Assembly (NCBI RefSeq): GCF_030411955.1
Contig: NZ_JASNRA010000001.1
Coordinates: 1 to 64,000, forward strand
Direction of reading: 5' to 3'
Origin: Massilia sp. YIM B02443
GTDB lineage: Bacteria; Pseudomonadota; Gammaproteobacteria; Burkholderiales; Burkholderiaceae_D
Length of the DNA stretch: 64,000 nucleotides
The notes beneath the pieces are model-generated. The model saw nothing but the letters and a program-made list of their open reading frames with translations. It was not told where the DNA came from and searched no databases. Shown here one piece after another: positions 46,557 through 51,775 of this stretch. Position numbers and translations under genes: made by a program. How positions within the stretch are numbered: the stretch's first letter is position 1; every line of letters begins with the position of its first letter.

Positions 46557-48784
46557 CTCTACGCCCGTATGCAATTCCTCCAGCACCGCTTCCAGCTGCT
46601 CCGGCCTGAGCGGCTTGACGTAGTGGCGCTCGAAGCCGGCCGCCAGTGCGCGCGTGCGGTCCGCCGGCTGGCCGTAGCCGGTCAGCGCCAGCAGCCGCAT
46701 CGGGGCCAGCGCCGGCTCGGCGCGCAGGGCGGCGGCGATCTGGTAGCCGTCCATCCCGGGCAGGCCGATGTCGACGATCGCCAGCGCCGGGTGCGCCTGA
46801 CGCGCCAGCGCGATGCCATCGACACCGTTGGCGGCTTCCAGCACCCGGCAGCCGGCCGCCGCCAGCTGCGCCGCCAGCACCGTGCGCGCGTCGTCGTTGT
46901 CTTCGATCAGCAGCACCGTGGCGTCGCCGGGCGCGGCCTGGCGCGCCGCCGCGGCAGCGCCGGCAGGCGCAGCCTGCGCCGCGCCGTCGCCCGCGCCGCC
47001 AGCCTGCGCGGCCAGCAGCGGCAGGCGCAGCGTGAACGTGCTGCCCTGGCCGGGTCCGGCGCTGGCCGCCTCGATCGACCCGCCGTGCAGCGCCACCAAG
47101 CTGCGCACTACCGACAGCCCGATCCCCAGCCCGCCCTGGGTGCGGTCGAGCGTCACCTTGCCCTGCACGAAGATGTCGAACAGGCGCGGCAGCAGCTCGG
47201 GCGTGATGCCGATGCCGTCGTCGCGCACCGTCAGCCGGGCTTCGCCGCTGTCCTCGTTCGCGGTCAGCGCGATCTCGACCGTGCCGCCGGCCGGGGTGTA
47301 CTTCAGCGCATTGCCCACCAGGTTGCCGATCACCTGTTCGATGCGCGTGGCGTCGCCGCGGATCCAGGCCGGCGCCAGCTGGCAGCGCAGCGTGTGCTCG
47401 ACCCGGCCACCGACACGCAGCGCGTCGACGATGGCGCCGGTCATGGCGGCCAGGTCGAGCGGCCGCATGTCGAGTTCGACCTTGCCGCGCGCCAGCCGCG
47501 CCAGGTCCAGCAGGTCGTCGACGATGCGGGTCAGGTGCTTGCTCTGGCGTAGCAGGATGTCGTGGGCGCGCTCCTTCAGCGCCGCGCTGGCCGGCCCGCT
47601 GCGCAGCAGCTGGGTGGCGCCGACGATGCCGCTGAGCGGGTTGCGCAGCTCGTGGCTGAGCATGGCCAGGAAATTGTCGCGCGTCTCGACCTGCTGCTCG
47701 GCCAGCACCCGCGCTTCCTGTTCGCGCTGCAGCAGGGCGGCGCGCTCGGCCGCGGCGTGGGACAGCTTGGCGCCGGCGTCGTGCAGCGCATGCTGCAGGC
47801 GGTCGACTTCGGCGATCCCGCTGGCGCCGCTGGACGGCACTTCGCCGCGGCTGAGCATGGCGGCCGAGCCGCCCGCGTCTTGGATCGCGCGCAGCAGGCG
47901 GCGCCCGAACAGGGCGGCGGCGGCGGCCGCGCACAGCATGGCCAGCAGCATGCCGACGGCGGCCAGCGTCACCGCGCGCTGCGCCACGCCCTCGATCTCG
48001 CGTGCCGGCACCGACACCGTCACCAGCCAGCCCGACATCGGCGAGCGGAAGAAGGCGTGGTAAGCGTCCACGCCGGCGCGCGTGTCGTAGCGCGCCAGGC
48101 CTTCGTCGCGCCCGGCCGCGGCGCGCATCAGCGCCGGATTGGCGAACTGGCCGAAGCGCGCCGGTTCGTTGCTGCGCGCGATGACGTGGCCTTCGGTGTC
48201 GACCACCGACAGCTTCCAGCCCGGCGCCAGCGCCCGGCGCGCGATCACCTTCGAAAAATAATCGGGCGAGAACACCGAGGCCAGCACGTAGCGGCGGCCG
48301 CCGTCGAGCGGCACCGGGATGTTGACGGTGGTGACGGGAATCTTTTGCACGGCGCCGCTGATCAGGCCCGAGACCACAGTCTTTTGCGTCTCGATCACGC
48401 GCCGCGTGCGGGTGCGCACATAGTCGGGCGGCGGCGGCAGCGGCGCGCCCAGCGGCTGCACGGTGTTGATCAGCTGCTGGCCGCTGGGCGCGAACAGGAT
48501 GGTGCGCCCGCCGTCGCCACGGTCGGCGCTGGTGGCGTGGCGGTAGAAGCCCTGCATGTCGCCGCTGGCCAGGTGCGGCGAGCGCGCCAGCACCCGCAGC
48601 GCCGCTTCGGCGCTGCCCAGTTCGCGGTCGACCAGCAGGCGGTGGCGCTGGCGGTTTCGCTGAGCGTATGCAGCGCCGCTTCGCGCTCGGCCTGCAGCAG
48701 GGTGCGCAGCGCGATCGCGGCCAGCAGGAACACCGGGACGATGATGGCGCCGATCATCAGTAGCAGGTAGGAACGGATTTTCAT
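46554..48784 (-). pseudogene. hybrid sensor histidine kinase with a frameshift near 48640
   Basis: The N-terminal part starts MKIRSYLLLMIGAIIVPVFL at 48784 and reads a membrane helix to about codon 48 (SETASATA); the frame then shifts, and VDRELGSAEAALRVLARSP continues the protein in another frame to 46554. One missing base in the GC-rich run around 48639-48641 explains it. The rest is intact: periplasmic Cache-like domain, second helix (about 48000-47900), HisKA (LAMLSHELRNPLSGIVG), HATPase (GNLVGNALKYTP, DDGIGI, GGLGIGLSVV) and receiver (VLLIEDNDD, VDIGLPGMDG). If real, the mutation removes the first helix and the gene is broken; a sequencing error is equally possible. Confidence 0.8.
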
Positions 48785-48964
48785 TCGGTAAGCGCGCCGA
48801 GCCGCCGTATCCGGATAAAACGGCACAGGCGTCAGCTGGCGATTTCAATGGCAATATTATATGCGTCGGCCTCGTCGGCGTCGCCCGTCTGCGGCCGCTA
48901 CCGGTGCTGCCTCAATCCGTTGGAACCGTTCCCACCGTCTCAAAACTACGTTACTATTCGTCAA

Positions 48965-48982
48965 GTTACGTAATTACGTAAC
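48965..48982. promoter_or_regulatory. 18-bp perfect palindrome upstream of the antiporter-KfrA-like operon
   Basis: GTTACGTAATTACGTAAC, a perfect inverted repeat 33 bases before the TTG start of the antiporter. A further GTTAC half-site lies 15 bases upstream at 48950. Its position suits an operator; the KfrA-like protein encoded in the same operon is the obvious candidate ligand. Confidence 0.7.
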
Positions 48983-49014
48983 CCTGAAAACGATAACGAT
49001 AACGGAGACAACCC

Positions 49015-50223
49015 TTGAACACGACCGAGATCTTCCTGATCGCGATGCTGCTCATCTTCGTGGCGCCCTACCTGCTATGGCGCCTCGGACGCACCGACTA
49101 TTTCGCCCCGCTGGTGGTGGTCCAGATTGTCATGGGCATCCTGCTCGGCCCCGGCGTGCTGGGCGCCGCCTTCCCGCAGTACCACGCCTTCGTCTTCAAC
49201 CCCGACGTGGTCAAGACCCTGAACGGCATCGCCTGGTGGGGCGTGATGCTGTTCGTGATGCTGGCCGGGATCGAGCTCGACCTGAAAAAAGTGTGGCAAT
49301 ACCGGCGCGAGAGCGTGACCACGGCCGGCCTGTCGCTGAGCATGCCGTTGCTGTTCGGCTGCGGCGCGGCCCTGTTGCTGGTGGGCTACCAGGGCTGGAT
49401 GGGACCGCGGGCCGCCACCTGGCAGTTCACGCTCGGCATCGGCATGGCGTGCGCCGTGACCGCGCTGCCGGTGCTGGTGCTGCTGATGGAAAAGCTCGGC
49501 ATCCTGCGCCAGCCGATGGGCCAGCGCATCATGCGCTACGCCAGCCTGGACGACGTCGCGATCTGGGGCGTGCTGGCGCTGATCATGCTCGACTGGGAAC
49601 GGGTGGGGCGCCAGGCCGGCTTCCTGGCCGGGTTCACGCTGCTCACGTTCCTGTACCGGCGCCTGATGGCGCGCCTGCCGAAGAGCGACCGCTGGTACGT
49701 GGCGCTGATCTGGCTCATCGCCTGCGCCTTCGGGGCCGACTGGGCCGGGCTGCACTACATGGTCGGCGCCTTCCTGGCCGGGGTGGTGATGGACGCCGAC
49801 TGGTTCGAGCAGGAGCAGCTCGACAGCCTGTTCAGGAACGTGCTGCTGGTGCTGATGCCGGTGTTCTTCCTCAGCACCGGCCTGCGCACCAAGTGGGACC
49901 TGGGCGGCTACTCGGTGTTCTTCGTGGCCGGGCTGCTGCTGTTCGCGTCCTGCGGCGGCAAGCTGGCCGGCGCCCACATCGCCGGCCGTGCGCTGGGCTG
50001 GAAGCGCGGCGAAGCGACCATCATCGGCTGGCTGCTGCAGACCAAAGGCCTGATCGAGATCATCTTCGCCAACATCCTGCTCGACAAGGGCATCATCACT
50101 AGCGAGATGTTCACCGCGCTGCTCCTGATGGCGGTGGCCAGCACCATGCTGACCATCCCGGTCGTGCATCCGAAGCTGAACCGCAGCCAGAACGCGGGCC
50201 TGGTCAACCAGGCCAGTTCCTGA
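49015..50223 (+). CDS. CPA2 cation:proton antiporter without RCK domain
   Basis: 402 residues from a TTG preceded by ACGGAGA. Eleven to thirteen membrane helices; VVVQIVMGILLGPGVLG, LFVMLAGIELDLKKVW, SLDDVAIWGVLALIML (Asp-Asp of the transport site) and FFLSTGLRTKWDL match the Na+/K+:H+ exchanger family PF00999. It ends after the membrane part, lacking the RCK module of the antiporter at 8592. The ion is not predictable. The KfrA-like gene begins 10 bases after its stop, so they form an operon. Confidence 0.9.
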   Translation: MNTTEIFLIAMLLIFVAPYLLWRLGRTDYFAPLVVVQIVMGILLGPGVLGAAFPQYHAFVFNPDVVKTLNGIAWWGVMLFVMLAGIELDLKKVWQYRRESVTTAGLSLSMPLLFGCGAALLLVGYQGWMGPRAATWQFTLGIGMACAVTALPVLVLLMEKLGILRQPMGQRIMRYASLDDVAIWGVLALIMLDWERVGRQAGFLAGFTLLTFLYRRLMARLPKSDRWYVALIWLIACAFGADWAGLHYMVGAFLAGVVMDADWFEQEQLDSLFRNVLLVLMPVFFLSTGLRTKWDLGGYSVFFVAGLLLFASCGGKLAGAHIAGRALGWKRGEATIIGWLLQTKGLIEIIFANILLDKGIITSEMFTALLLMAVASTMLTIPVVHPKLNRSQNAGLVNQASS

Positions 50224-50233
50224 GGAGACGCGC

Positions 50234-50785
50234 ATGGCACGCACCGGATTGAGCAAGGCCCAGGTCAGGGCCTGCCGCGACGAATTGCTGGCGCAGGGAC
50301 GCCATCCCTCGGCCGACGCCGTGCGCACGGCGCTGGGGACGGGATCCAAGTCGACCATCCACCGTTACCTGAAGGAGCTGGCGGCGGAAGCTCCCGATGC
50401 CGCCATGCAGCGCCAGCAGACCGCGCACACGTTGCAGAGTCTGGTCGAGGAGCTGGCCGAGCGCCTGCACCTGGATGCCGAGCATGACATGCACGACCTG
50501 CGCGCGCTGTGCGCCAACTACGAGGCGCAATTGCAGGAAAAGGAGCGCCAGCTGGCCGCTTTGCGCGGCACCGTGGCAGCCCTGAATGCGCGGCTGGAAT
50601 CGCTGGCGCAGGGCGCAGACCAGGACGGCCAGGCGGCGTCCGGCCACGGCGGCTTCGGCGGCCTGCTGCCGAACCCGGTCCTGGGGGCGCGCGGTCCGTC
50701 GCCGTTCAGCATCATGCTCAGCAGCGGGCGCTCGGAAGTGTTCGACATCGAGCGCCTCGGCCCGGCCGGCTTCAAGTTCCAGTAA
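50234..50785 (+). CDS. KfrA N-terminal-domain DNA-binding protein
   Basis: 183 residues. The N-terminal 50 residues (ARTGLSKAQVRACRDELLAQ, HPSADAVRTALGTGSKSTIHRYLKEL) form the helix-turn-helix of the plasmid protein KfrA; residues 75-125 are coiled coil (LHLDAEHDMHDLRAL, EAQLQEKERQLAALRG). The C-terminus (residues 135-183) is Gly-rich and not like KfrA. Plasmid KfrA binds its own operator and forms filament-like assemblies; a chromosomal copy behind an antiporter suggests a local repressor. GAGGAGACGC precedes the ATG. Confidence 0.85.
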   Translation: MARTGLSKAQVRACRDELLAQGRHPSADAVRTALGTGSKSTIHRYLKELAAEAPDAAMQRQQTAHTLQSLVEELAERLHLDAEHDMHDLRALCANYEAQLQEKERQLAALRGTVAALNARLESLAQGADQDGQAASGHGGFGGLLPNPVLGARGPSPFSIMLSSGRSEVFDIERLGPAGFKFQ

Positions 50786-50803
50786 GCCCGCGCGCCGGCC
50801 GTC

Positions 50804-51775
50804 TCACACGGCCTGCCGTAATTCCCCGGTGCGATCCAGCACGTAGTGATCGAGGTCGCGCGCCAGCACCAGCTGGCCGTCGAACTCGGCGCGCGCCTCG
50901 TCTTCCAGCAGCGACAGCGGCAGTGGCCCGCCGTCCTGGTAGCGCGGGCTGAAGTGGGTCAGCACCAGGTTGCGCACGCCGGCCCCCTGCGCGAAGCGCG
51001 CCACCCGCAGCGCCGAACTGTGCTGCGGGCCGGGGCCGACCTTGAGCAGGACTTCTTCGGTATACGTCGCTTCGTGCACCAGCACGTCGGCGCCGTGCGC
51101 GGCGGTGGCCAGCAGTTCGGGCCTGTCGTTGTCGCCGGCGACCACGATGCGGCGCGCGCGGCGCGGCGCCAGCAGGTAGTCGTGGGCGGCGATGCGGCGC
51201 CCGTCTTCCAGCGTCACGTCGCGCCCGCGCTGCAGTTCGCCCCACAGCGCCGACGAAGGAATGGCGTCGGCGCGCAGTTTGTCGGTGTCCAGCCGCCGCT
51301 CGAGCGCGCTTTCGGTGAAGCCGTAGGCCCAGCACGGGATGCGGTGCGACAGCGCGGTCGCCTCGACCGCCAGGTCGGGCAGGCTGTCCTGCAGCAGCGC
51401 CGGGTCTTCCAGCTCGTGCGGCGTGAGAAAGGTGAGCGGGTAGGGCAGCGTCAGTTCGCTCGCCGCCATGATGGCCTCGATCATGGCGCGCAGCGGCGGC
51501 GGGCCGACGATCGTCAGCGGCTCGCTGCGGCCCAGCATGCCGGCGCTGGCCAGCAGGCCCGGCAGGCCGTAGCAGTGGTCGCCGTGCAGGTGGGTGATGA
51601 ACACGGCGCGCAGGCTCATCAGGGAAAGCGGGGTGCGCAGGACGCGGTGCTGGGTGCCTTCGGCGCAATCGACCAGCACCCACTGGCGCGCGCCGCGCAG
51701 GCGCAGCGCCAGGCCGGACATATTGCGTTGCCGGGTCGGGGTGCCGGCCGAGGTGCCGAGGAACAGGATTTCCAT
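50804..51775 (-). CDS. rnz: ribonuclease Z / tRNA 3' endonuclease
   Basis: 323 residues from the ATG at 51775. Metallo-beta-lactamase fold with the zinc motif THLHGDH (about 62-68), MEILFLGTSAGTPTRQRN start, further His/Asp ligands in VHEATYTEE and LTHFSPRY, and the exosite region around ELTLPYPLTFLTPHELED. It cleaves tRNA precursors at the discriminator base or, when CCA is encoded as here, may act on other RNAs. Convergent with the KfrA-like gene (19-base gap). Confidence 0.94.
   Translation of the reverse strand: MEILFLGTSAGTPTRQRNMSGLALRLRGARQWVLVDCAEGTQHRVLRTPLSLMSLRAVFITHLHGDHCYGLPGLLASAGMLGRSEPLTIVGPPPLRAMIEAIMAASELTLPYPLTFLTPHELEDPALLQDSLPDLAVEATALSHRIPCWAYGFTESALERRLDTDKLRADAIPSSALWGELQRGRDVTLEDGRRIAAHDYLLAPRRARRIVVAGDNDRPELLATAAHGADVLVHEATYTEEVLLKVGPGPQHSSALRVARFAQGAGVRNLVLTHFSPRYQDGGPLPLSLLEDEARAEFDGQLVLARDLDHYVLDRTGELRQAV

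Follow-up and report, generated by a model that had tools for sequence, protein, structure and literature searches.

In the papers found, KfrA proteins have been studied as plasmid maintenance factors; at the locus described here such a protein is encoded directly behind an ion exchanger. The window, i.e., the whole analysed stretch of 64,000 nucleotides from Massilia sp. YIM B02443, contains on its plus strand the gene of a predicted NapA-like CPA2 Na+/H+ antiporter of 402 amino acids with a TTG start (49015-50223, stop codon at 50221-50223) and, after a gap of 10 bp, that of a short KfrA_N protein of 183 amino acids (50234-50785). The candidate operator of the two genes is GTTACGTAATTACGTAAC, a perfect 18-bp palindrome at 48965-48982, 32 bp upstream of the antiporter start; the region from 48940 to 49010 has a GC content of 37%, versus 66% across the window. 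At up to three mismatches the palindrome has one match in the window and none in 100 shuffles, and its 16-bp core occurs only once in the genome (5.71 Mb) when up to two mismatches are allowed. An earlier note on this DNA had described a protein with a KfrA-type N-terminal domain directly after a CPA2 antiporter and a perfect palindrome just 5′ of the latter, and both descriptions are borne out. An RNA element was rejected for this region, as Rfam gave nothing at gathering score between 48500 and 51000. No open-access paper on a KfrA-antiporter unit was found by title or by the beginning of the abstract, with most subscription papers lying outside this search.

The antiporter matches the Pfam family Na_H_Exchanger (PF00999) with an E value of 1.8e-35 (123 bits, cut-off 26.2) and the NCBIfam CPA2 model TIGR00932 with 6.1e-28, but in the latter case with 98 bits, below the cut-off of 238. 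Its structure model, which is of middling confidence (mean pLDDT 75.9), has its best structure match in NapA (5bz2; Z 36.1, rmsd 4.0, 371 residues). With the NapA-type CPA2 Na+/H+ antiporters it shares the fold, a similar length, and the aspartate pair D179-D180, which is invariant in 21 of 21 antiporters; it differs from them in an identity of only 23% in the structural alignment and in forming an operon with a KfrA_N gene. Paired aspartates are typical of the electrogenic CPA2 members, which catalyze Na+/H+ exchange, and the substrates here would likewise be Na+ and H+. Identity with KefB or KefC was rejected, since the C-terminal RCK domain is missing (no RCK-type Pfam match at E ≤0.1) and the equivalog scores are 33 and 23 bits against cut-offs of 804 and 752. 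A PDB sequence search with the antiporter gave no match at E ≤0.001.

The 183-amino acid protein matches Pfam KfrA_N (PF11740) over residues 8-119 (E 2.3e-21; 77 bits, cut-off 26.1). Its model (mean pLDDT 78.6, pTM 0.40) comprises a helix-turn-helix (HTH) domain of three helices (8-52), a single helix spanning 54-131 (pLDDT mostly >90), and a tail that is largely disordered, with a low-confidence helix at 157-165. The order of an HTH and a coiled coil, known from plasmid KfrA, is thus predicted by the model, while the long α-helical tail of a protein of about 345 amino acids is absent. Foldseek gave nothing for this model at E ≤0.001, the top rows being LexA at 0.4. The PDB sequence search at E ≤1 yielded 23 doubtful matches, the best of which (0.022), to a ubiquitin ligase chain, runs along the part with the long helix, and no KfrA_N-DNA structure surfaced in this search; a short KfrA together with a clear 18-bp site would be a good object for such a structure.

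Across the related soil bacteria Massilia, Duganella, and Pseudoduganella the pair has been conserved, so that the earlier note passes the test of conservation in related genomes by which it could have failed. Among 294 genomes of the family, 66 match KfrA at E ≤1e-15, mostly with the N-terminal part of longer proteins; at the loci from this search the order is antiporter-kfrA in 12 (the own locus included) and kfrA-antiporter in three (L012, L018, L028), and one locus (L013) has a short kfrA alone. In a named collection a single-protein query found nothing, while an alignment query gave 531 matches, the best 80 of which were considered. The best 20 relatives among these (L085-L104), some from genomes that overlap with the family search, belong to Duganella, Pseudoduganella, and Massilia; in 13 of them a full-length antiporter match lies in front and the site is present, one (L088) is cut by a contig end, four are without the antiporter, and two have a broken remnant of it. 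In the order, 17 of 399 genomes have a KfrA match at E ≤1e-25, none of which, outside the own genome and with up to eight candidates scored per genome, extends beyond profile position 138; a full-length relative outside the family is therefore not seen at 1e-25. Of plasmids, 215 records match, none covering 80% of the KfrA protein.

The palindrome was compared in its occurrence with and without kfrA. In all 24 distinct pairs (29 loci minus five duplicates), which answers the search for conserved pairs with the same site that the earlier note had called for, the site lies before the first gene, 9 to 52 bp from the start codon, with the consensus RKTAYRTAATTACRTWAY, seven positions of which are invariant while individual sites deviate elsewhere. 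All 21 antiporter-first pairs have it ahead of the antiporter (at least 24.7 bits), versus none of 28 antiporters without kfrA (at most 9.1 bits); in all three kfrA-first pairs it lies ahead of kfrA and is missing ahead of the antiporter. For the co-occurrence of site and kfrA the Fisher p is 2.6e-14, uncorrected for relatedness. The scores refer to 52 distinct antiporter starts, with duplicate upstreams collapsed; antiporter matches had to start by residue 30 and to have at least 150 bp upstream, and long-KfrA upstreams had to reach 60 bp. The score matrix was built, without leave-one-out, from the pair sites that it then scores, so that counting mismatches to the core found in the window gives a measure less dependent on it. 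There are 0-4 such mismatches in the pairs, and in the antiporters without kfrA that were examined nothing lies within four mismatches of the core over 1.5 kb on either side of the start. Evolution has in this way provided natural controls, with the site there when kfrA is there, gone when kfrA is missing, and shifting with gene order.

A scan of 30 genomes for the core at up to two mismatches gives 19 places, of which 16 coincide with the pair and three lie away from it (G268, G687, G688); the genomes G199, G188, and G277 carry the pair but show no place at this threshold because their sites have three to four mismatches. The control, the pattern read backward, is commoner in these genomes, with 67 places on a single strand versus 19 for the site, so that the argument rests on location and not on rarity. 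A global regulon is not supported, with only three of the 19 places away from the pair. Judged from the compared sequences, the site belongs with the kfrA gene and follows gene order. Since it is present in relatives only together with kfrA, expression of the pair is most likely under the pair's own control, and the autoregulated unit suggested by the earlier note is well supported by the joint travelling of site and kfrA, by the dependence of the site on gene order, and by related sites at many distant KfrAs. A link of this unit to ions or pH, which the earlier note also suggested, would be a guess.

On these grounds it is probable that the two genes form an operon under negative autoregulation, in which a KfrA dimer on the palindrome would limit transcription of the antiporter gene and of its own. 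The short KfrA_N protein would dimerize through its long helix, and its N-terminal HTH would bind the single palindrome, which would lie 7 bp downstream of the predicted -10 hexamer and cover about +1 to +18. Binding would block initiation, and both the antiporter and KfrA would be held at a set level. The promoter placed at 48929-48957 on the plus strand (TTCCCA, 17 bp, TACTAT, with the -10-like hexamer at 48952-48957) is a prediction by eye and from the alignment, where a hexamer similar to TACTAT precedes the site in many relatives; a strict sigma-70 consensus scan of 48700-50900 gave no promoter. Repression rather than activation would be expected from the position of the site and by analogy with the plasmid KfrAs, which are reported as transcriptional autoregulators (PMC7783346, PMC7821693). 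The plasmid KfrA operator is located at the protein's own promoter near -10, and the candidate site here is similarly placed. Because no ligand domain is seen in the KfrA model, the control would be of a set point rather than a response to a ligand.

A different role could be sought in the C-terminus, which is Gly-rich, as the earlier note had stated, and in the relatives carries a conserved motif of roughly the form GFG.F..L..SR.G....SPF......GR. A profile of this motif, built from 19 antiporter-first members, recovers these 19 and seven of seven orphan, remnant, and contig-edge members (E 1e-13 or better) as well as, more weakly, three of three kfrA-first members (E 2.5e-7, 0.0012, and 0.0012), and gives nothing better than E 5 in the 91 long KfrAs. 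Across 10 aligned members five residues of the tail do not vary. These findings would suit a KfrA that activates, or a signal-gated switch in which the tail senses the state of the antiporter, the membrane, or the ions and frees the operator. Such a protein is nevertheless unlikely, since the tail is retained at loci without an intact antiporter and is predicted to be disordered apart from its one low-confidence helix, and since the position of the site suits a repressor. Less likely again is a mainly DNA-organizing, filament-forming KfrA of the kind proposed for plasmids, with antiporter control as a side effect. Filament formation and a contribution to plasmid stability are indeed reported for plasmid KfrAs (PMC7821693, PMC7783346), and kfrA survives the loss of antiporter and site, but the protein is about half as long and, at up to two mismatches, the core is rarely found away from the pair (three of 19 places). 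That an unrelated antiporter regulator reads the palindrome and KfrA is an incidental neighbour is highly improbable, for although LacI-type sites suggest further regulators at these promoters, none of the 28 antiporters that lack kfrA has the palindrome in front of it, and the palindrome shifts with kfrA when the order flips and has related sites before many kfrA genes without an antiporter.

The last point concerns the long KfrA genes, which, without an antiporter, often have arrays of related half-sites, such as TAGTATGTAATTACATGGTATGTAATACATTACG, before their own start. Examples come from a Xanthomonas plasmid and from the genomes of Stenotrophomonas, Undibacterium, and Herbaspirillum; variant arrays occur in Acinetobacter and Azonexus and on a Variovorax plasmid. 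The 99th percentile of shuffled upstreams is exceeded by 41 of 77 long KfrA upstreams, and 36 of the 77, including a sister of the Variovorax plasmid sequence, are below it. With the site motif, KfrA_N operators could be recognized at many loci that lack annotation. Long KfrAs of chromosomes and plasmids resemble the short protein in a very similar HTH and, in many cases, in related TAYGTAATTAC half-sites; their own features are a double-block operator array and a long coiled coil, and they are without an adjoining antiporter gene on the same strand. Their median length is 347 amino acids, versus 176-211 amino acids in 22 antiporter-type members in pairs, i.e., about twice that of the latter. 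In five of nine loci looked at, the long KfrA gene and a presumably recombinase-like gene, similar between these loci, are divergently oriented, with the KfrA site array in between (L106 3359-4327, L111 3318-4313, L120 3376-4326, L107 3359-4306, L132 3362-4333; Undibacterium, Herbaspirillum, Massilia, and Acinetobacter). Together these elements look like a small mobile module.

The KfrAs of the plasmids RK2 and R751 (IncP-1) and RA3 (IncU) likewise have an N-terminal KfrA_N-type HTH followed by a long helix; the comparison covered R751 and RA3. Over 62 columns the R751 HTH is 37% identical to that of the 183-amino acid protein. R751 KfrA has 342 amino acids, and its operator is a long inverted repeat with TTGTATGTTGTAG arms; RA3 KfrA has 345 amino acids and an operator of five 9-bp repeats (PMC7783346). 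The tail of the plasmid proteins is a different one. Both operators differ in sequence from the single palindrome at the locus described here, and the pairing with an antiporter is a further difference from the plasmid KfrAs. The 183-amino acid protein is a member of KfrA_N but, given its half length, its tail, and its single-palindrome operator, strictly speaking no plasmid KfrA. In a tree of the N-terminal 135 residues, a branch with 99/92 support separates 48 long KfrAs (a subset of the 91 used for the tail motif) from 29 antiporter-type KfrAs; many forks of this tree are unresolved and four long branches are flagged. With one branch parting the two types, one recruitment suffices. That a relative of plasmid KfrA has here acquired a different genetic partner is well supported by the comparative evidence, and the new task put forward for it in the earlier note is plausible; the finding suggests a mobile-element type of regulator working on an ion exchanger. 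There is a slim chance that a single recruitment of a plasmid-type autoregulator, in Oxalobacteraceae, founded a new class of regulators of transporter operons, in which half of the coiled coil would have been lost, the operator reduced to a single palindrome, and a conserved C-terminal peptide gained that would couple the operator to the antiporter or to the ion state of the membrane.

In six of the 20 named relatives the antiporter is lost (four) or broken (two), and there the site is missing too while kfrA is kept. L085, L098, L103, and L104 have an intact kfrA but no longer an antiporter or a site at the locus; L089 retains two overlapping pieces that match antiporter residues 44-242 and 261-402, and L100 two pieces that match residues 315-402, both without the antiporter start and without the site. 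At all six loci kfrA outlasts antiporter and operator, and the tail motif is retained. None of five genomes searched with an orphan or remnant unit has the site elsewhere (≤2 mismatches). A genome-wide antiporter search, which covered five of the six loci, found none at 1e-40 for L098, L100, L103, and L104, and in the genome of L089 the two pieces and a second, near-full-length antiporter elsewhere. On the KfrA tree the label "orphan", which includes L088, a locus merely cut by a contig end, changes six times; four of the changes are forced by well-supported branches, so that there has likely been more than one separate loss. As to negative autoregulation, the survival of kfrA would fit a repressor whose loss before that of its target is harmful; outliving antiporter and site, it may equally have a second task.

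The neighbours of the unit vary. The pair is found next to a TatD nuclease gene in Duganella and next to a creatininase-type hydrolase gene in one Massilia group, kfrA alone next to peptidase U32 in M. arenosa, and the pair in the window next to a histidine kinase gene and an RNase Z-like gene. Neither the kinase gene, which is divergent, nor the RNase Z-like gene belongs to the unit, since in none of 29 genus relatives with a fetched locus does the pair or the kinase occur 1.5 kb or less from the RNase Z-like gene. Judged from its surroundings, the unit has relocated or been transferred; a non-systematic look at the neighbours listed revealed no recombinase beside it. The neighbourhood of the RNase Z-like gene on the window contig is common to some genus relatives, which suggests a chromosome, and the replicon of the pair is probably chromosomal.

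The antiporters form at least two branches of one family, in which the antiporter-first members group weakly (87/65) and the kfrA-first members fall in two places outside this group. Either kfrA was linked early and often lost, or it moved between paralogous antiporters. The same genome encodes on another contig a second antiporter, 71% identical (G000:C10:39672-40856; L065 3173-4357), which is without an adjoining kfrA and without the palindrome; downstream of it, on the opposite strand, lies a sulphur-transport-type gene.

A second regulatory layer may be represented by LacI-type palindrome-like sites, one of which (TGGAACCGTTCCCA) is located at 48921-48934 in the window, with similar sites upstream in relatives. 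Such palindromes (TGGAAACGNTNCCA, GAAAWCGCTTTC) occur before 18 of 20 antiporter-first pairs and one of three kfrA-first pairs; antiporters without kfrA have them in 16 of 27 cases, and single-base shuffles in 1.4 of 50. They are the only second layer seen and possibly point, if anywhere, to sugar supply. Several antiporters without kfrA (L067 1514-2773, L068 1357-2628, L072 1985-3286) are divergent to a gene of a solute-binding-protein ABC transporter, named by Pfam at one locus and by similar sequence at the others. Such a connection of an ion exchanger with the uptake of solutes, perhaps sugars, is unexpected, and it hints at sugar uptake as a further process with which the antiporter is associated.
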